Source: Chloroflexota bacterium (GTDB lineage: Bacteria; Chloroflexota; Anaerolineae; Anaerolineales; Anaerolineaceae). From it: a stretch of 41,519 nucleotides of DNA. Where the stretch lies: contig JAAYKH010000026.1 in assembly GCA_012522475.1 (NCBI GenBank), positions 1 to 41,519 of the forward strand. The letters are read 5' to 3'. The translations under genes and the position numbers were made by a program. Below, in pieces: positions 7,999-16,265 of this stretch; position 1 is the first letter of the stretch; every line of letters starts with the position of its first letter. The notes below the pieces were generated by a model that ran no database searches, was not told the DNA's origin, and saw only the letters and a program-made list of their open reading frames with translations.

Positions 7999-9540
7999 TC
8001 AATCTCTGGGCAGAGAAAAACACACCCGCGCACCAGTATCAGTTTTTGCATCCGCCCACATGCGCCCACCATGCGCTTCGACGATCGCCCGCGCCAGGTA
8101 CAATCCCAGGCCGGCGCCTTTGGTCTTTCGGCTGGTATCCTGTGCCCGGTAAAAGCGGTCGAAGATGTGCGGTAGGTCGCCAGTGGCAATTCCCGGGCCG
8201 GCGTCAATCACACAGATCACCACCTGGTCGGGCAGGGTTTGCCCGCTGATGCGAATTTCACCCGCGGGCGCGTATTTGATCGCATTCGAGATCAGGTTGC
8301 TCAATACCTGCTCGATGCGCGATTCGTCCGCCAGTACGATGGGAAAATTCTGGTCAATATCGATCACAATGCGGTGCACATCCGACTGCACCTGGAAGCG
8401 CTCGGCCAGGCGCTGCGCCAGCAGGTAGAGATTCGCGTCCGCCTTTTTCATATGCACACCGTTCATCTGCAGCCGGTTAGCTTCCAGCAGGTTTTCAATC
8501 AAATCTGTCAGGCGATCGGTCTCTTCTTCAATCACCTGCAAGCTGCTGTTCATGACCTCACTACCCCACTGCACATCGTCACGCCGTAAGGTGCTGACAT
8601 AGCCTTTGATCAACGCCACCGGCGTCTTCAGCTCGTGGCTGATGATGGAAACGAACTCGCTTTTAAGTTCATCTGCCTGCCGGAAACGGGTGATGTCTCG
8701 CACCGTGACAATTGTGCTGATCAGGGTACCATCCATCGAGATGAGCGGGGCATAGGTAATGCCCACCGGCAGAGGCGGCTGTCCACCGGAGCGTTCAAGA
8801 TCGCCCTCCACATACAGGTGAGCCTGCGGTGAGAGCGGCCAGCCCCCAGCCTCGGCCTTCTCGAGGGTGATCCCGTTAGGCGGTTTGGCCCAGCGGATTA
8901 CGTCTTCATGGCTCAGGGCCTGCAGTTGGGCCTGCGTCAGACCGAACAGGCGGGCAAAGGCCGCATTGGTGCGTTCGATAGCGCGGTCGGGGCTGAGGAT
9001 CAGGATCCCGTCTGCCGCTGAATCGAGCATCGCGTCGGTGCGCTGTTTTTCCCGGTTAACCTCGGTATACAGCCTTGCATTGCGCACCGCGATGGCAGCC
9101 TGATTGGCAAAACTGGAGAGCAGCGAGCGGTCATTGGCTGAAAAAACGCCCTGGTAATTACGGAAGATGTAGATAAAGCCAGTCACCTCACGCTGGGCAA
9201 TCAACGGCAGCCCAACAGCCGAAAGCGTGCCCATGCTGATCTGATGCAGCAGCTGGTTAAGCTCGGAGAGCTGTAAGTTCGACGGTTCCTGGGTAGGTGG
9301 AATTTTCTCAAGCCAGGTGTTCAGATAGCGCTGAATAGCTTCCGGTAACCCATCGGCGACAGCTAAAAACCAGCGCGCCTGTTGGTTGCTGAGGGCAATA
9401 AAACCGGCGTGCCCGGCCAGCATTTCAATAGCATATTTCAGGATGCGTCCTAAAAGCTTGTCGAGGTCCAGCTCTTCGGTCAGCGCACGCGAGATTTCCA
9501 GTAGATAATCGCGCTGGCGTACACGGATGTCGGGTAACAT
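7999..9540 (-). CDS. Sensor histidine kinase with GAF and PAS domains
   Basis: A 513-aa apparently cytoplasmic kinase; no membrane segment is visible. Residues about 10-160 form a GAF-type sensor domain and about 165-290 a PAS domain (MLDSAADGILILSPD...RDITRF). The HisKA box SEFVSIISHELKTPVA carries phospho-acceptor His302. The HATPase domain has the N box SNLISNAIKYAP (Asn419), DAGPGIATGDLPHIFDRF and the G2 box KGAGLGLYLARAIVEAHGG. No response regulator gene is adjacent, so its partner is elsewhere. Downstream on the same strand is the ABC exporter, which could be co-transcribed. A TAAAAT box (9547-9552) sits 6 nt before the ATG without a Shine-Dalgarno. Confidence 0.93.
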   Translation of the reverse strand: MLPDIRVRQRDYLLEISRALTEELDLDKLLGRILKYAIEMLAGHAGFIALSNQQARWFLAVADGLPEAIQRYLNTWLEKIPPTQEPSNLQLSELNQLLHQISMGTLSAVGLPLIAQREVTGFIYIFRNYQGVFSANDRSLLSSFANQAAIAVRNARLYTEVNREKQRTDAMLDSAADGILILSPDRAIERTNAAFARLFGLTQAQLQALSHEDVIRWAKPPNGITLEKAEAGGWPLSPQAHLYVEGDLERSGGQPPLPVGITYAPLISMDGTLISTIVTVRDITRFRQADELKSEFVSIISHELKTPVALIKGYVSTLRRDDVQWGSEVMNSSLQVIEEETDRLTDLIENLLEANRLQMNGVHMKKADANLYLLAQRLAERFQVQSDVHRIVIDIDQNFPIVLADESRIEQVLSNLISNAIKYAPAGEIRISGQTLPDQVVICVIDAGPGIATGDLPHIFDRFYRAQDTSRKTKGAGLGLYLARAIVEAHGGRMWADAKTDTGARVCFSLPRD

Positions 9541-9858: not shown

Positions 9859-10539
9859 ATGCCAGACCTGCCGTCTATCTCGCAGATCATTCGCTCCAAG
9901 CGCAAATCCTTCAGCCTGGAAGTCCAGCCCGACGGTCAGCTGATTGTACGCGCGCCGCGCGCCGCCACTCAGGCAGATATTAACACCATCGTCGCCCAAA
10001 AAGCCAGCTGGATTGCCAGAGCACGGGCGCGCCAGGCGTCTCACGCACAACTTTACCCGCCCAAAACCTTCACTCCCGGTGAAAAATTCTGGTACCTGGG
10101 GCAGCAGTATCCTTTGCACCTGGTTGAGCGCCGCCATCCCCTGCTAAGCCTGAACGGGGCCTTCACCCTCGCCCATCACGCACAGGCAGGGGCTAAAAAA
10201 GCCTTCATCGCCTGGTACCGGGCGCAAACCCGCCAGAACGTCCAGCGTCTGATTGCAAAATATCAAGCGCAACACGGCTTCAAGGTCAACGCGCTGCGCA
10301 TCACCAGCGCCCGTACCCGTTGGGGGAGCTGTTCGGGCAAGGGCAACCTGAACTTCACCTACCGACTGTGCATGGCCCCGCCCGAGGTGATGGAATACGT
10401 CGTCGTCCACGAACTGGCCCACCTGCGCGTTCCCAATCACAGCCGCACCTTTTGGGCCGAGGTCGCCCGGCTCTACCCGCGCTATCAGCATGCCCGCGCC
10501 TGGCTTAAGCAACACGGACATCTGCTTACGCTGGACTGA
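9859..10539 (+). CDS. YgjP/DUF45-type zinc metallopeptidase
   Basis: A 226-aa protein of the M48-related YgjP-like (DUF45) family. The metal-binding helix is VVHELAHLRVPNHSRTFW: HELAH plus the downstream His of NHS. The conserved RTRWGSCSGKGNLNFTYRL segment precedes it. The N-terminal IIRSKRKSFSLEVQPDG is typical of the family start. The frame extends upstream to a TTG at 9724, but only the ATG at 9859 gives the family length. TATAAT (9846-9851) lies 7 nt before that ATG with no Shine-Dalgarno. The cellular substrate of the family is unclear. The gene ends convergently with pepF. Confidence 0.88.
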   Translation: MPDLPSISQIIRSKRKSFSLEVQPDGQLIVRAPRAATQADINTIVAQKASWIARARARQASHAQLYPPKTFTPGEKFWYLGQQYPLHLVERRHPLLSLNGAFTLAHHAQAGAKKAFIAWYRAQTRQNVQRLIAKYQAQHGFKVNALRITSARTRWGSCSGKGNLNFTYRLCMAPPEVMEYVVVHELAHLRVPNHSRTFWAEVARLYPRYQHARAWLKQHGHLLTLD

Positions 10540-10630: not shown

Positions 10631-12427
10631 CTAAAGTTCGCAATAGCGGTCTACCCGCTGCGCAACCACCGCCAGGCTGTTTGTCCAGAAATCTTTCGAG
10701 CGCAGATCAATGCCAAAGCGGGCGGCCAGGTCAGCAGCCGGCGCTTCGCCCGTGCTGGCCAGCAGTTGCTTATAATCCGGAATAAAGTCCGCACCCCGCT
10801 GCTGGTAGATGGCGTACAAACCCACCCCAAACAACATTCCAAAGGCATAAGGGAAGTTATAAAACGAGAGCCCAGCCGAATAATAGTGCGGTTTCCAGGT
10901 CCACATGAATTTATGCCGATAAGCCGGGTCCAAACCCTCGCCATAGGTCTGTGCCTGTGCATCTTCCATGATCTCGCAAAGCTCGTCGGCGCTCAATTCG
11001 GCATTAACGCGGCGATCGAAAACCTCTTTTTCAAACAAAAAGCGCGAGTAAATATCCACAATCACCTGCGAATCGCCGATCAGCGCGGTCTCCAGCAGCG
11101 CCAGTTCCTCCTGCGGGTCTTTGATCGTCTCCATAATCGCGTTAAACATGATCGTCTCACACATAATCGACGCGGTCTCCGCCATGGTCATCGGCGTCTG
11201 CGCCTGCAGCAACGTCTTGCCAGCCTGATACATATTATAGGTGTGATACCCATGACCCAGCTCATGTGCCAGGGTCATCACCTGGTCCAACGAGCCATCA
11301 AAATTTAATAAGATACGCGATTCCTTCACCCCTGGCACAGGCATACAGAACGCACCGCCCCGTTTGCCCTCGCGTTGTTCGGCATCGATCCAGCGGTTTT
11401 CAAAGGCCGTGCGGGCAAAATCTTTCAGGTCAGGCGAGAATTTTTCGAAATTCTTCTGGATGAACGCCGCTGCGTCATCAAAACTGAAATTTTTTTCCAG
11501 CTTGCCAACCGGCGCAAACAGGTTCCACCACGGCAGTGCCTCGCTCCCAAAACGGGCTGCCTTGGCTTTAAAATAACGTCTGAAGGTGGGGAAAGAATCT
11601 TGCATGGCCACCATCATCACATCGAGGGTTTCACGGTCGATGCGCGCCTGGTCTATCGGCGCGTGCAGGGCGTCGACACGGCCGCGATGCTTATTGAGCG
11701 TGTTCACCCAGCCCTTAATCCCGTTCATGCTGGCTGCCAAGGGCTCTTTGACGGATTCCCAGGCCCCAAACTCGGCGTCGTAAGCCCGTTTGCGCACATC
11801 CTCATCGGGGTGAAAGTACAGGTTAATCAGAGCCGGCATCGGTAAGGTCTGGGACTCACCATCAAGTTCGAACTCAACCGATTTTTGCGAGGTCACCGTC
11901 CCTTGCAGTTTCGACCACGCTCCCGCTGACGAAAGGTGTAGTTCGCTGGTCAGGATCTCTTTTTCTTCACTCATCAAGTATTGGCTTTGATCCGCAATTT
12001 CCATCAAAGGAAAGGCATGCTCGCCGGCGCTGTGGCCCAGCTCTAACACTTCGGGCAAAACCGAACGCAGCCGGCCCAGCTTGCTTTCCAGAACCACATT
12101 CACCTTCTGAAACTCAACCATCACCTGGTCAAATTGTGAATCCATCCGCATGGCCGTCTGGTTATAGGAATCCGTGGCAATAAAGGAATGCAAATAAGCA
12201 CCGATGGTGCTGCCTTTTTCAAGCAGAAGATTAACCTGATCCACCAGGGCGCTGATGGCTACGTTGAGCGTTTCTGCCGGGCTGTGCTCATCCAGTGCAG
12301 ATAGTTCCTGCTCAAAAAACAGGCGCAACGCTTCTATCTTCTCTTTTACCCACTCGATATCTCTGGCCAATTCTGGTGAATCGAGTCCGGGGTAAACATT
12401 TGTAAGGTCCCAACGTGGGGGTGTCAT
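10631..12427 (-). CDS. pepF: Oligoendopeptidase F (M3 family)
   Basis: A 598-aa zinc oligopeptidase, the usual length for PepF. The active-site helix is TLAHELGHGYHTYN (HELGH), with the downstream zinc-ligand Glu in MAETASIMCE. N-terminal TPPRWDLTNVYPGLDSPE is typical of the family. I choose the ATG at 12427 because AAAGGAG lies 5 nt upstream; 23 further in-frame codons exist but have no support. It probably degrades cytoplasmic peptides of roughly 6-20 residues. The leader is unusual: it carries a duplicated promoter, a stub of the DUF2807 gene and the tail of the PHP gene (12489-12579). A decayed second copy of the first 43 codons lies at 14475-14599 on the opposite strand. Confidence 0.93.
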   Translation of the reverse strand: MTPPRWDLTNVYPGLDSPELARDIEWVKEKIEALRLFFEQELSALDEHSPAETLNVAISALVDQVNLLLEKGSTIGAYLHSFIATDSYNQTAMRMDSQFDQVMVEFQKVNVVLESKLGRLRSVLPEVLELGHSAGEHAFPLMEIADQSQYLMSEEKEILTSELHLSSAGAWSKLQGTVTSQKSVEFELDGESQTLPMPALINLYFHPDEDVRKRAYDAEFGAWESVKEPLAASMNGIKGWVNTLNKHRGRVDALHAPIDQARIDRETLDVMMVAMQDSFPTFRRYFKAKAARFGSEALPWWNLFAPVGKLEKNFSFDDAAAFIQKNFEKFSPDLKDFARTAFENRWIDAEQREGKRGGAFCMPVPGVKESRILLNFDGSLDQVMTLAHELGHGYHTYNMYQAGKTLLQAQTPMTMAETASIMCETIMFNAIMETIKDPQEELALLETALIGDSQVIVDIYSRFLFEKEVFDRRVNAELSADELCEIMEDAQAQTYGEGLDPAYRHKFMWTWKPHYYSAGLSFYNFPYAFGMLFGVGLYAIYQQRGADFIPDYKQLLASTGEAPAADLAARFGIDLRSKDFWTNSLAVVAQRVDRYCEL

Positions 12428-12488
12428 AAGGTCTCCTTTCGAGTCAATCAAAAAAATAAGGTTGGTTTTTCCAGATTCAAAAATGTCA

Positions 12489-12504
12489 TCAGGCACGGTT
12501 GATT
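12489..12504 (-). repeat. Recombination junction: DUF2807 stub joined to copied PHP-gene tail
   Basis: On the minus strand the DUF2807-like sequence runs into AATCAACC (12497-12504) and continues as GTGCCTGA, exactly as at the 3' end of the PHP gene (14399-14414). AATCAACC occurs in both parents: 14399-14406 in the PHP gene and 14926-14933 in DUF2807. It therefore looks like the 8-bp microhomology at which the two were joined. Confidence 0.8.
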
Positions 12505-12525
12505 CAGTTGAATTTCCTATTTCAT
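12497..12525 (-). pseudogene. 5' stub of a DUF2807 gene copy
   Basis: Reads ATG AAA TAG then EIQLNQP, against MRQEIQLNQP in the intact gene at 14905. Codon 3 is a stop and the copy ends at the junction after about 10 codons. The upstream sequence through the promoter is also homologous, so this is a truncated duplicate rather than chance similarity. Confidence 0.8.
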
Positions 12526-12720
12526 CCAGTTACCCTCTGTTTCTAACAGCTCCATACCTTGATGGGAACGATTATATCACAAACTAAATAAAAATACGTA
12601 TAATATCATAATATCTTAATAACTCACCAATATTTATAAAGAATATCAAATGAATCTTTATAATAATTGATGATCAATATTATGAAAGCAGAAGAGGGAG
12701 AGCCGTCTGCGATTATTCAG
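12505..12720 (-). repeat. Left copy of the duplicated promoter block
   Basis: Read on the minus strand, this AT-rich block matches 14700-14925 on the plus strand at roughly 85% identity by eye across the promoter core, with few gaps. It runs from the 3' end of the 133-aa gene (GAATAATCGCAG) through the -10 box to the first codons of DUF2807. Confidence 0.85.
12571..12579 (-). promoter_or_regulatory. Captured extended -10 box upstream of pepF
   Basis: TGATATAAT on the minus strand, the counterpart of TGGTATAAT (14852-14860) in front of DUF2807. Transcription from here would give pepF a leader of about 135 nt containing a two-codon open frame (Met-Lys-stop). Confidence 0.55.
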
Positions 12721-13114
12721 CAGGCAGGTAAATTAAATGCTCCCAAACCGATTTCGCCCAGGCCAGGTCGTCTGGGTTATCCAAATAGAAGGCGATTTGC
12801 AGGCAGGAGTCATCACTGGCGGTAAAGGTATATAGCGAGAGGCGCTTTTTGTCATCCCGGGTGGTGTGAATGTGGGTGTATCCTAAACCAACAATCCCTC
12901 CCTTGGTTGAGACCAGGGTCTCCAGGGCGTCTGCGGGCATTTTTTCCTGAATCTGAGCCAACAAGGTGAGTTTGTCCGTTTCTGCTGGCAATCGAAAGGG
13001 CACCGTGATAATTGTGATCCCCGTTTTCCAAAAGATGAGCTCGCCTTCTTCCACCCTGCTGTCGAAATCTTCGGGAAGGTCAATCAGCCATTCTTTTGTG
13101 ATTTGAAACGCCAT
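12713..13114 (-). CDS. Small protein of unknown function (133 aa)
   Basis: I do not recognise the family. The protein is soluble, acidic, without signal peptide or membrane segment, and reads as an alternating alpha/beta domain (ITIITVPFRLP, KKRLSLYTFTASDD, SCLQIAFYLDNPDDLAWA). The ATG at 13114 is preceded by AAAGGA at good spacing. A degraded copy of its C-terminal third lies at 14600-14718 upstream of the DUF2807 promoter, so ancestrally this gene sat directly in front of DUF2807. It may therefore work with that protein. An intact frame next to a degraded copy suggests this copy is the maintained one. Confidence 0.75.
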   Translation of the reverse strand: MAFQITKEWLIDLPEDFDSRVEEGELIFWKTGITIITVPFRLPAETDKLTLLAQIQEKMPADALETLVSTKGGIVGLGYTHIHTTRDDKKRLSLYTFTASDDSCLQIAFYLDNPDDLAWAKSVWEHLIYLPAE

Positions 13115-13247
13115 AAGTTCCTTTCTGAGCGCGGATCGGATGTGTTTGCATCCTGCGGCAGGTTCATACTATAATCAGGTGGTGTTTATTATACCTGCAG
13201 GGCTGACTGCTGATGAACGCTCTATGGACTATGGAAGAAGGCCTGAA

Positions 13248-13484
13248 ATGTTTACCGACCCTGACGGGTCGATCGAGCACTTTGAATGGGGTTTATTTCA
13301 GGTCAACGGCCAATCTCACCGCGCCGATGGAGAGGGTATCGGTAAAGATATTGGCATCATCGCAGGAGCTGTATACGCGTGGAAAGGACGTCAGAGCTTT
13401 AACCACCTGACGCGCCAGGGTGTGGCGGTAAGTTTTTGGGCATGGCACGTGTTAAATGCCGTAAAGTGGACGATGCGTTCCTGA
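13248..13484 (+). CDS. Short Mth938-like domain protein, possibly truncated
   Basis: 78 aa from the ATG at 13248. The stretch IEHFEWGLFQVNG...GEGIGKDIGIIAGAVYAW resembles the start of Mth938/AAMDC-like domains (fold of unknown function, normally about 110-125 aa). After Trp the similarity fades: where the family has a Gly-rich VIGTGxxG segment, this has SFWAWHVLNAVKW, and the frame stops soon after. It is either a divergent short member or a decaying gene. The frame is also open upstream to 13140, but that part looks non-coding. It lies between the divergent 133-aa gene and the PHP gene, inside the rearranged region. Confidence 0.42.
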   Translation: MFTDPDGSIEHFEWGLFQVNGQSHRADGEGIGKDIGIIAGAVYAWKGRQSFNHLTRQGVAVSFWAWHVLNAVKWTMRS

Positions 13485-13523
13485 TAGAAACGAAGCGAAA
13501 AGAAAAAGGAAATTTGAGGTACT

Positions 13524-14414
13524 ATGGCGACAATTGATTTACACATTCATTCCAATTACAGTTCTGATGGAGAATTTCCACCGGCACAACTGGTTGAATT
13601 TTGTCTGGCAGCCGGGTTAACACATGCGGCCGTCGCAGATCATAACACCGCGAGGGCAGTCGACGAGACGCTTCAGGCTGCCACAGGGACACCGCTGATC
13701 ATCATCCCGGCAATTGAAATGAATGTTGTTTACAACGGGCTTGGCTTGCACATGCTTGGCTATGGCATTGACCACCATGCCGAGATTTTTAATGAAATTG
13801 CAGAGGATATTCGCCTTCAGGATCAGGCGAACTCTGCAAAAATGTTGCGCTTGGTACGGCAATTGGGGATTGAATTTGACGATGCGCTGATTGAAAGCCT
13901 GGCAGTTGATGGGATCGTGATTGCTGAAACAATCGCTGAGGCAGCCTTGCAGTTTGACGCCAAAGGTGAGAATCCGCTTTTGGACCCCTACCGCGCCGGT
14001 GGGCACCGGAGCGATAATCCTTATGTAAATTTCTACTGGGATTACTGTGCGCAGGGGAAGCCTGCCCACGTGCCCGTGGACTATATTACGCTTGAACAGG
14101 GGCTTGAGGTCATCCGCGCCAATCACGGCGTTCCTATCCTGGCGCATCCTGGTCAGCAGTTGAATGAAAACAAATCTCTGCTGGAGGAAATCGTTGCGCA
14201 GGGCGTTGATGGGCTGGAGGTTTACAGCAGTTATCACACCCGTGAGCAGGAGCATTTCTATCGTGATGCCGCCCTGGAACTGGGGATTTTGATGACCTGC
14301 GGCAGCGATTTTCATGGAAAGACCAAGAAAAGCATTCTGGTGGGTGGGACGGAGTGTGAAGGTCAGGAAGCACAAATTATTGACGCATTGCTGGAAAAAA
14401 TCAACCGTGCCTGA
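13524..14414 (+). CDS. PHP-domain metal-dependent phosphoesterase
   Basis: A 296-aa protein of the PHP family (TrpH/YciV-like, which includes nucleoside 3',5'-bisphosphate and RNA 5' phosphatases). Metal ligands are visible: DLHIHSNYSSDGE (His7, His9, Asp15), AVADHNTA, IPAIEMN, ILAHPGQ, YSSYHT and CGSDFHGK. Length is normal. No other domain is attached, which rules out a polymerase-associated PHP. The last codons (INRA, stop) also occur as a copy in front of pepF (12489-12504), so the 3' end was one breakpoint of the local duplication. Substrate not determined. Confidence 0.88.
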   Translation: MATIDLHIHSNYSSDGEFPPAQLVEFCLAAGLTHAAVADHNTARAVDETLQAATGTPLIIIPAIEMNVVYNGLGLHMLGYGIDHHAEIFNEIAEDIRLQDQANSAKMLRLVRQLGIEFDDALIESLAVDGIVIAETIAEAALQFDAKGENPLLDPYRAGGHRSDNPYVNFYWDYCAQGKPAHVPVDYITLEQGLEVIRANHGVPILAHPGQQLNENKSLLEEIVAQGVDGLEVYSSYHTREQEHFYRDAALELGILMTCGSDFHGKTKKSILVGGTECEGQEAQIIDALLEKINRA

Positions 14415-14474
14415 TGGCGCTTTTGAATCAGGAAAAACCAGCCCTATTTTCCGATTGACGCGAAAAGAGGCTTT

Positions 14475-14599
14475 ATAACACCCCCTCGTTGGGGCCCTGC
14501 AAGTGTTTAGTGTTTACCCCGAGCTCGATTCGCCAGGATTGGCTCGGGGCATCAAGTGGGCAAAAGAGAAAATAGAAACATTGCACCTGTTTTCTTGAG
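14475..14599 (+). pseudogene. Remnant of pepF 5' end
   Basis: Translates as ITPPRWGPASV-stop and, after a frame change, VYPELDSPGLARGIKWAKEK..., against MTPPRWDLTNVYPGLDSPELARDIEWVKEK in intact pepF. The start codon has become ATA. A 7-bp tandem duplication (GTGTTTA at 14503-14509 and 14510-14516) shifts the frame, and a later TGA ends it. Homology to the pepF leader extends upstream to the PHP stop codon. Confidence 0.88.
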
Positions 14600-14718
14600 C
14601 ACAAACGACCCGCCCGGGATAACAAAAAACGCCTCTCGCCAGATGCCTTTGCCGCCAGCAAAGCCCCCTGCCTGCAAATTACCTTTCATTTGGATAACTC
14701 GCGCGACCAGCCGAATAA
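14600..14718 (+). pseudogene. Remnant of the 3' end of the 133-aa gene
   Basis: In one frame it reads RDNKKRLSPDAFAAS and CLQITFHLDNSRDQ, against RDDKKRLSLYTFTAS and CLQIAFYLDNPDDL in the intact protein encoded at 12713-13114. About 43 nt corresponding to the C-terminal residues are deleted before GCCGAATAA. The remnant abuts the pepF remnant, so the middle of that duplicate was lost. Confidence 0.85.
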
Positions 14719-14851
14719 CCGCAGGCAGCTCCCCTCTTCAACTTTCATAATATCGGTTATTAATTATTACAAAGAACTATTTGATATTCTTTATAAATTC
14801 TGAGGAGTTATTGAGATATTATGATATTATACGTGTTTTTATTTAATTTTA

Positions 14852-14860
14852 TGGTATAAT
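14852..14860 (+). promoter_or_regulatory. Extended -10 promoter of the DUF2807 gene
   Basis: TGGTATAAT, an extended -10 element, about 45 nt before the start codon, in a very AT-rich stretch (14740-14860). There is no convincing -35 box. The element is conserved in the duplicate at 12571-12579. Confidence 0.65.
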
Positions 14861-14904
14861 CGTTTCCATAAAGGTATAGGCGACTAGAAACAGAGGACAA
14901 CCGG

Positions 14905-15570
14905 ATGAGACAAGAAATTCAACTGAATCAACCTTTTTCCAAAGTCAGATGCAGGGATATCGGCACGCTGATCTTGACCCAGGGCGATCAACCCTCACTG
15001 ACCGTAGAAGCCGATGAGGAGCTTCTCGCAAAGCTGGTCGCAGAAGTGCGCGGCGACAGCCTGTTCTTAGGCCTTGATGAGGACTGGTTCGCCCAGTTCG
15101 GAAAGATGTTTTCATCAATCTTTACCGAGCCCGATCGGAAAATCACCTATCATCTCACCGTGACTGATTTAGACCAAATCCACATCAGCGGGAAAATGGA
15201 CCTGGCATGCGATACCTTCAAAGCCAGGGATCCCAAACTGCAGATCTCGGGGTTGGGCCAATTGAGCTTTGGTCATTTAGAGTGCACCAACCTTAAAGTG
15301 TCCATCAGCGGTCGGGGTGAATTTTCAGGGGCGGGTTGGGCTGAACATCAATCTATCCATATTTCAGGCTCCGGTGAGTATAAAACCCCGCATCTTGCCA
15401 GCCAAACCGCCCAAATTGTAATTTCTGGCCAGGGCAACGCCACCTTGCGGGTTGAGGAGAGCCTCGATATTACCATCTCTGGTATGGGCAAGGTGCATTA
15501 CTACGGGCAGCCGAAAATGCGCCAGGTGATCAGCGGCATGGGAAAAACAAAAAGGTTGAATGATCAATGA
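14905..15570 (+). CDS. DUF2807 / putative adhesin head (GIN) domain protein
   Basis: A 221-aa protein built of repeated beta-strand turns with the hallmark pattern ISGxGxxxxxxL: HISGKMDLAC, ISGLGQLSFG, ISGRGEFSGA, ISGSGEYKTP, ISGQGNATLR, ISGMGKVHYY. This is the DUF2807 (head GIN) beta-helix family. Most members are exported, but here there is no signal peptide or membrane segment, so it is either cytoplasmic or leaves by an unknown route. AGAGG precedes the ATG at 8 nt spacing. The pentapeptide-repeat membrane protein gene follows 29 nt downstream and may be co-transcribed. A truncated duplicate of promoter plus first codons lies at 12497-12720. Confidence 0.85.
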   Translation: MRQEIQLNQPFSKVRCRDIGTLILTQGDQPSLTVEADEELLAKLVAEVRGDSLFLGLDEDWFAQFGKMFSSIFTEPDRKITYHLTVTDLDQIHISGKMDLACDTFKARDPKLQISGLGQLSFGHLECTNLKVSISGRGEFSGAGWAEHQSIHISGSGEYKTPHLASQTAQIVISGQGNATLRVEESLDITISGMGKVHYYGQPKMRQVISGMGKTKRLNDQ

Positions 15571-15599: not shown

Positions 15600-16265
15600 A
15601 TGAGACAGGAAATAAAAATCGAAAAGAAGGCTTCAGAAGTCATCCAACCCCGCTCCGTTGAAGAAGCCCAGGAGGCTATCCGCACCCGGCAGGACCTTTC
15701 CGGCGCGGATTTGCGCGGCATGGCGCTGAAGAGCATCAGCGCGGTTAGCGCAGTTTTACGCGAAACTGACCTCACCAAAGCGGACCTCTCGTATGGGCTG
15801 TTAATCAACCCCAATTTTTATAAAGCTTCGCTGCACGATGCCGCGGCGCATAACACCATCATCTTGGGGGGCGACCTGGTCAAAACCAGCCTTATTCAGG
15901 CCGACCTCAGTCATTCAGCCATTATCGGCACGGATGCCAGCGAATCCGACTTCGAGGGTGCCAATTTACGCAGCGCTGCCCTGGTGGGCACAAACTTCAC
16001 CAACGCCAACTTCATCCAAGCCAATCTGACGAATGCTCGCCTGGCCGGGTTGGATGTCACCGGTGCAGATTTCACCGACACAGACCTGACCGGAACGCGG
16101 GCGTATAACGTCAACTGGGAAAAGGCGAAGATCCAACCTCCCAGCCTGCCAGGTCCGCTCATTCAACTCTCCGCCTGGACCTGGTCGGTTATTTTGGGCG
16201 GGTTCCTGGGCGTTTTCGCGCTGCTGATTTATTCACGAACCCGGAAGAAACGAAAACCTCTCTAA
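15600..16265 (+). CDS. Pentapeptide-repeat protein with C-terminal membrane anchor
   Basis: A 221-aa protein. Residues about 30-170 are tandem pentapeptide repeats of the A(D/N)LxX type (LSGADLRGMAL, ADLSYGLLINPNF, ADLSHSAIIGTDA, ANFIQANLTNARL, ADFTDTDLTGT), predicting a right-handed quadrilateral beta-helix. A single hydrophobic segment near residues 192-211 (WSVILGGFLGVFALLIY) is followed by the basic tail SRTRKKRKPL, so the helix is probably tail-anchored with the repeats at the membrane surface. GGGAGG precedes the ATG. It follows the DUF2807 gene closely. Function unknown; topology is inferred from the positive tail. Confidence 0.88.
   Translation: MRQEIKIEKKASEVIQPRSVEEAQEAIRTRQDLSGADLRGMALKSISAVSAVLRETDLTKADLSYGLLINPNFYKASLHDAAAHNTIILGGDLVKTSLIQADLSHSAIIGTDASESDFEGANLRSAALVGTNFTNANFIQANLTNARLAGLDVTGADFTDTDLTGTRAYNVNWEKAKIQPPSLPGPLIQLSAWTWSVILGGFLGVFALLIYSRTRKKRKPL

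Follow-up and report, generated by a model that had tools for sequence, protein, structure and literature searches.

Inversion with duplicated breakpoint strips at a peptidase-DUF2807 locus of an uncultured Chloroflexota bacterium

Rearrangements in which inversion is accompanied by copying of DNA are known from several systems. In bacteria, passages of PMC8963470 use the term DNA duplication associated with inversion, together with an abbreviation for it, and describe the phenomenon also in Thermus; passages of PMC3120642 and PMC6933940 credit a duplication-with-inversion mechanism to Furuta et al. 2011 (PNAS), and PMC4671568 likewise speaks of such a mechanism. In the Drosophila accounts concerned, staggered breaks with fill-in are the usual reading (PMC7584159, PMC5080602), and replication-based repair is admitted as an alternative in PMC7584159. 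For starving E. coli, the relevant part of PMC3161906 models nearly reciprocal inversions as two inverted template switches, and it also reports, for 16 of 300 isolates, embedded inverted duplications that have a pair of junctions and microhomology of 3-30 bp.

The locus described here lies in a stretch of 41,519 nucleotides, analysed as a whole and called the window below, and the lineage in which it was inverted is an uncultured Chloroflexota bacterium. Its anatomy is that of DNA duplication associated with inversion, and it is a well-resolved further case of a rearrangement known elsewhere. That an inversion with copied ends took place, by any route, is hardly in doubt. Very probably the history of the locus was one in-place inversion of three genes (P133, DUF498 and PHP), in which the strips at the two breakpoints were duplicated as inverted copies, whichever route produced them.

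Gene order in the relatives and in the window

Fifteen genomes of the same genus were compared, six of which are 76% complete or less, and the gene for P133, a protein of 133 amino acids, and the peptidase gene lie on one stretch in 13 of them. All 13 of these readable relatives have one order, in which the pentapeptide-repeat, DUF2807 and P133 genes point one way and, beyond P133, the DUF498, PHP and peptidase genes point the other way, DUF498 being recognised in 11, PHP in 5 and the peptidase in all 13. P133 stands directly upstream of DUF2807 in each of the 14 same-genus relatives that have P133, while both a DUF2807 orthologue and an adjoining pentapeptide gene are found in 15 of 15. On the other side, a YgjP gene adjoins the peptidase gene and converges with it in 11 of the 13, and the other two contigs end inside the peptidase gene. 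Two relatives are less informative: G005 has pentapeptide-DUF2807-P133 and is devoid of the peptidase gene, and G008 shows pentapeptide-DUF2807 only, on a contig of 3.2 kb. Outside the genus, P133 was detected in 2 of 105 other genomes searched, at 33-38% identity, and the stretches around these two loci carried none of the companion genes save one DUF2807 match of 26%.

Compared with this order, the window has P133, DUF498 and PHP flipped as a block of about 2 kb between the peptidase gene and DUF2807, with both flanks in place. The unmoved left flank consists of a YgjP-like metallopeptidase gene (9859..10539, plus strand; PF01863) and the intact M3 family oligoendopeptidase gene (10631..12427, minus strand, ATG start at 12427; PF01432, TIGR02290), which is unmoved as well and whose orthologues in the 13 relatives are 70-81% identical. 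An earlier label for the latter, pepF, holds as far as M3 oligoendopeptidase is concerned and fails as the pepF equivalog, the protein scoring above the cut-off of TIGR02290 and below that of TIGR00181. Within the inverted block lie the intact P133 gene (12713..13114, minus strand), which gave no match in Pfam or NCBIfam, a decayed DUF498 gene (13140..13484, plus strand) missing residues 49-103 of the relative's protein, and the intact PHP-domain gene (13524..14414, plus strand; PF02811), whose orthologues, 59-62% identical, were found in 5 of 15 same-genus relatives. The window's own reading frame at 13140-13484 had no family match in profile searches; its counterpart in a relative matches DUF498 (PF04430), and the label DUF427-like was dropped on this account. 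A scan for terminator-like sites returned seven where 3.1 (sd 2.1) were expected, and one of the seven is at the end of PHP (14407-14420). The unmoved right flank comprises the intact DUF2807 gene (14905..15570, plus strand; PF10988) and the pentapeptide-repeat gene (15600..16265, plus strand; PF00805). Turning the segment back restores the joins seen in the relatives, with the peptidase leader next to the end of PHP and the 3' end of P133 next to the DUF2807 upstream region.

A reading made from the sequence alone had derived both places from a single ancestral locus, and this part holds. The order that it proposed for that locus, PHP-pepF-133aa-DUF2807 on one strand, was sought in the relatives and occurs in 0 of the 13 readable ones, all 13 having halves that point in opposite directions. 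Nor is tandem duplication, an excised circle or relocation upstream needed, the arrangement being an inversion in place with the YgjP-peptidase and DUF2807-pentapeptide flanks unmoved.

Duplicated strips and their relics

Comparison of the whole 41.5-kb window with itself (blastn, minus strand, E up to 1e-4) gave two inverted repeats: block A, 12290-12504 against 14620-14399 (78% identity, E 1.6e-44), and block B, 12497-12864 against 14933-14610 (73%, E 6.6e-62, with one large gap). This bears out the sequence-only reading, according to which the pepF leader and the gap between PHP and DUF2807 hold each other's pieces: the two stretches align as collinear blocks A and B, with the left join at AATCAACC, and the block order is swapped as had been described, B then A on the minus strand at the left and A then B on the plus strand at the right. 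Each block is present once per breakpoint, in opposite orientation. The observed score was 364 against a best of 43 in 200 mononucleotide shuffles. Of the 18 pairs of at least 28 nt returned by a repeat finder, 6 are pieces of A and B, and the other 12 (28-48 nt, 70-80%) fell short of E 1e-4. No inverted repeat at E 1e-4 was detected in 15 of 16 relatives' stretches (14 same-genus and 2 same-family); the sole exception is a 45-bp pair at 8281-8478 of stretch L018, distant from both breakpoints. Moreover, the DNA of the left junction matched only one of 16 genus genomes, the window's own. Across these 16 stretches and, for the left junction, the 16 genus genomes, the duplicated strips are found in the inverted arrangement only.

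Strip 1, about 203-212 bp, runs from the end of PHP to about codon 42 of the peptidase gene, and strip 2, about 320-364 bp, from about codon 84 of P133 to codon 10 of DUF2807. On the left, all on the minus strand, the 5' end of the peptidase gene, to about 12298-12302, falls within block A and is preceded by the left copy of its leader and the PHP end at the start of block A (12428..12504; 62 of 73 aligned bases identical to 14399-14471). Upstream of these lie a relic of DUF2807 codons 1-10 (12497..12525; 26 of 29 bases as in 14905-14933), which reads MK* and so has the stop at codon 3 that had been claimed for it, and the left copy of the DUF2807 upstream region (12526..12712; 157 of 188 aligned bases identical, the aligned ends being a few bases wider). 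The 3' part of the intact P133 gene, from about 12860-12864, also belongs to block B. On the right, all on the plus strand, the last codons of PHP open block A at 14399, and sequence alignments place the right copy of PHP end, leader and peptidase 5' relic at 14399..14608. The peptidase relic itself (14475-14608) has ATA for ATG and is frameshifted by insertions of 7 bases and 1 base; it is identical to the gene at 90 of 116 positions in the multiple alignment and at 96 of 116 in the pairwise alignment. It is followed by a relic of the P133 3' part (14610..14712; 77 of 97 bases as in 12863-12767), which has no start codon and has a deletion near its end, yet keeps a frame free of stops throughout, and by the DUF2807 upstream region in its original place (14713..14904). 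The lost start, the insertions, the deletion and the stop at codon 3 in these scraps agree with the later decay of complementary parts that had been suggested.

Peptidase, PHP, P133 and DUF2807, the four genes that the breakpoints cross, are each represented by one intact copy and one scrap, and it is because both strips were copied in inverted orientation that each cut gene retained an intact copy. With its ends copied, an inversion can thus be harmless even where it cuts into four genes. Gene calling alone would reveal just the altered gene order and an odd gap of 500 bp.

To gauge the age of the copies, a tree was built from the peptidase and P133 pieces of the window together with those of 13 relatives; it draws on only about 210 informative window columns, and G005 and G008 were omitted, having no peptidase gene and no P133, respectively. 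The left and right window copies are sisters with full support (1.000 in FastTree, 100 in IQ-TREE), indicating that the duplication arose after the window's lineage had separated from all the relatives included in the tree. The relic branch (0.27-0.28) is 7-11 times longer than the intact branch (0.02-0.04), and the relics have diverged by about 20%. Divergence is similar across all strips (JC 0.11-0.24).

Upstream regions of the peptidase and DUF2807 genes

Some 50-60 bases ahead of the peptidase gene, 10 of the 13 relatives have a perfect TATAAT, as counted in 91-nt stretches (1000 shuffles gave a mean of 0.8 and a maximum of 4); both window copies of the peptidase leader lack it. Since neither copy carries it, the gene's own TATAAT was probably lost before the inversion event. 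Upstream of DUF2807, 13 of 15 relatives carry an extended -10 motif, TGnTA[TC]A[AC]T (500 shuffles gave a mean of 0.2 and a maximum of 2), the two misses being G012, in which an insertion shifts the motif outside the searched stretch, and G008, in which the contig ends. The motif is also present in both window copies of this region, as TGGTATAAT at 14852-14860 in the original place and, by motif search, as TGATATAAT at 12579-12571 on the minus strand in the left copy. The left motif is the nearest one to the peptidase gene, which it faces from 149 bases upstream, with the MK* mini-reading frame between them.

A rearrangement can give a gene a new upstream region, and the copied DUF2807 promoter may have taken over the peptidase gene, replacing the lost promoter of its own, a reading that we put forward tentatively and hold to be somewhat short of probable. 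If true, the duplication would have put a working promoter before the gene that had been cut off, and the inversion would have been tolerated on that account. The two DUF2807 upstream copies are 83.5% identical (JC 0.186) and have thus diverged about as much as the gene/relic pairs (JC 0.196 and 0.241), so that divergence alone is no proof of selection on the left promoter copy. As well, a sigma-70 scan listed 4 promoter-like sites where shuffles predict 4.4, did not include either extended -10 site, and therefore lends the takeover no backing.

Route of the inversion and comparison with known systems

Junction 1 (12497..12504, minus strand) is the 8-bp perfect microhomology AATCAACC, which both parents carry, PHP among its last codons (14399-14406) and DUF2807 at codons 8-10 (14926-14933), so that the breakpoint named in the sequence-only reading holds. 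One flank of the junction agrees with its parent at 12 of 12 bases and the other at 11 of 12, and among 300,000 breakpoint pairs drawn at random, a fraction of 6.7e-5 had microhomology of at least 8 bp. Junction 2 separates the peptidase and P133 relics (14608..14614, plus strand) and was placed by column comparison by eye; perfect microhomology at its exchange point does not exceed 1 bp, and the junction lies at the edge of a tract in which its two parents are alike at 9 of 13 positions. A 6-bp GGATGA occurs just downstream in both parents, and it was rejected as the microhomology of junction 2 because the column comparison puts the exchange upstream of it. Ku (PF02735) was found in none of the 16 genus genomes searched, 8 of which are at least 90% complete; in the control search of 14 genomes it was matched in Bacillus subtilis only. 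Failure to find Ku is compatible with Ku-independent end joining.

The microhomology at junction 1 and the failure to find Ku in the 16 genomes together favour two inverted template switches as the route, which we consider probable by a modest measure; since junction 2 has at most 1 bp, the support from microhomology comes from one junction. In the uninverted order the two copies of AATCAACC are mutually inverted, so that a stalled strand can anneal at the other one, on the opposite template. A replicating strand would stall at AATCAACC and switch from the end of PHP to the start of DUF2807 on the opposite strand, copy back through the segment, and overshoot the point where it had switched, entering the peptidase gene and thereby duplicating A; a second switch, into P133 and short of the first landing site, would then duplicate B. 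The segment of about 2 kb and the strips exceed the E. coli cases in length, which counts against this route.

Staggered breakage with fill-in, and a larger inverted duplication trimmed by deletions, would lead to an identical end product. In the former, staggered double-strand breaks would leave overhangs of about 210 and 360 nt, which are filled in before end joining rejoins the segment in reverse. The low microhomology at junction 2 suits end joining, but with four nicks and two long overhangs required simultaneously, no Ku found in the 16 genus genomes and an 8-bp match at junction 1 that is rare by chance, we regard such breakage as unlikely, though still the foremost alternative to template switching. 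More doubtful is a history in two steps, with a tandem inversion duplication of the whole region followed by deletion of the outer P133-DUF498-PHP copies, leaving scraps. It has a precedent in the embedded inverted duplications that accompanied amplification events in 16 of 300 E. coli isolates (PMC3161906, in the part concerned); however, it needs extra deletions whose ends by chance spared each of the four genes once, and both junctions would have to be deletion joins. The similar divergence of the strips fits one event, as we infer for this locus, rather than two, although steps in quick succession are not separable by it.

Two further explanations carry very little weight. In the sequence-only reading, the segment between the two copies of AATCAACC in the one-strand order underwent tandem duplication or was cut out as a circle, and then came to lie upstream in inverted orientation; this formally accounts for the permuted blocks and employs the same junction. 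As the one-strand order is found in none of the 13 readable relatives, whose halves point apart, and the YgjP-peptidase and DUF2807-pentapeptide flanks have not moved, the circle and tandem-duplication model was discarded as highly improbable. An artefact of assembly might be suspected in a metagenome-assembled genome of 89 contigs in which, alone, the inverted arrangement is known. The arms, however, differ by 22-27%, with a longest exact shared run of 21 bases, the relic copies sit on their own long branch, and the window's genes match the same genus; an assembler does not create diverged copies, and the chance of such an error is accordingly negligible.

Among the known systems, DNA duplication associated with inversion shares with this locus a bacterial inversion recognised against relatives, duplicated DNA, and the gain or disruption of genes where the breakpoints lie. 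Set beside what the sources cited above describe, the window is marked by the duplication of both strips, a segment only about 2 kb long and relics that have diverged by about 20%. With both junctions, both strips, 13 uninverted relatives and relics showing that the event is not recent, it offers an unusually complete natural record. The Drosophila inversions attributed to staggered breaks likewise have inverted duplications in the inverted arrangement only, at one or both breakpoints, and in the O4 inversion of D. subobscura gene fragments remain as duplicates, as far as these aspects are treated in PMC7584159 and PMC5080602. Unlike those inversions, the present one occurred in a bacterium in whose genus Ku was not found, spans kilobases instead of megabases, and has microhomology at one junction. 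The model for starving E. coli, as given in the part of PMC3161906 concerned, similarly invokes a pair of inverted switches, not quite reciprocal, at sites that are non-homologous or share microhomology. In E. coli, the mismatch of the exchanges is a few tens of bases and the fork about 1.5 kb, whereas in the window the strips measure about 203-212 and 320-364 bases and the segment is about 2 kb long.

PHP and DUF498 genes of the inverted block

The PHP-domain gene (window 13524-14414) is patchily distributed, a close orthologue being present in 5 of the 15 same-genus relatives, and in all five it lies between the DUF498 gene and the M3 family oligoendopeptidase (peptidase) gene. Within the inverted block, the window also carries a decayed DUF498 gene (13140-13484), which lacks residues 49-103 of the relative's protein and has its 3' end shifted to a different frame, and a Pfam search of this copy returned no remaining match.

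Sequence around the peptidase gene

What remains of the copied DUF2807 start (window 12517-12525, minus strand) lies upstream of the peptidase gene and reads as just two codons and a stop (MK*), a short frame that could affect downstream translation. At the other end of the gene, the last ~70 codons are present as two extra tandem copies in the relative G012 (contig stretch L020, 6759-7262), located after a peptidase gene that is itself intact.

P133 neighbourhood in G005

In another relative, G005 (contig stretch L061, 8850-15225), two large genes lie upstream of P133, the 133-aa gene without a family match, and no peptidase, DUF498 or YgjP-like metallopeptidase gene was found on this fetched stretch. 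The locus perhaps represents a second rearrangement adjoining P133. From a reading of the sequence alone, the two large genes look like AddA/AddB helicase-nuclease subunits.
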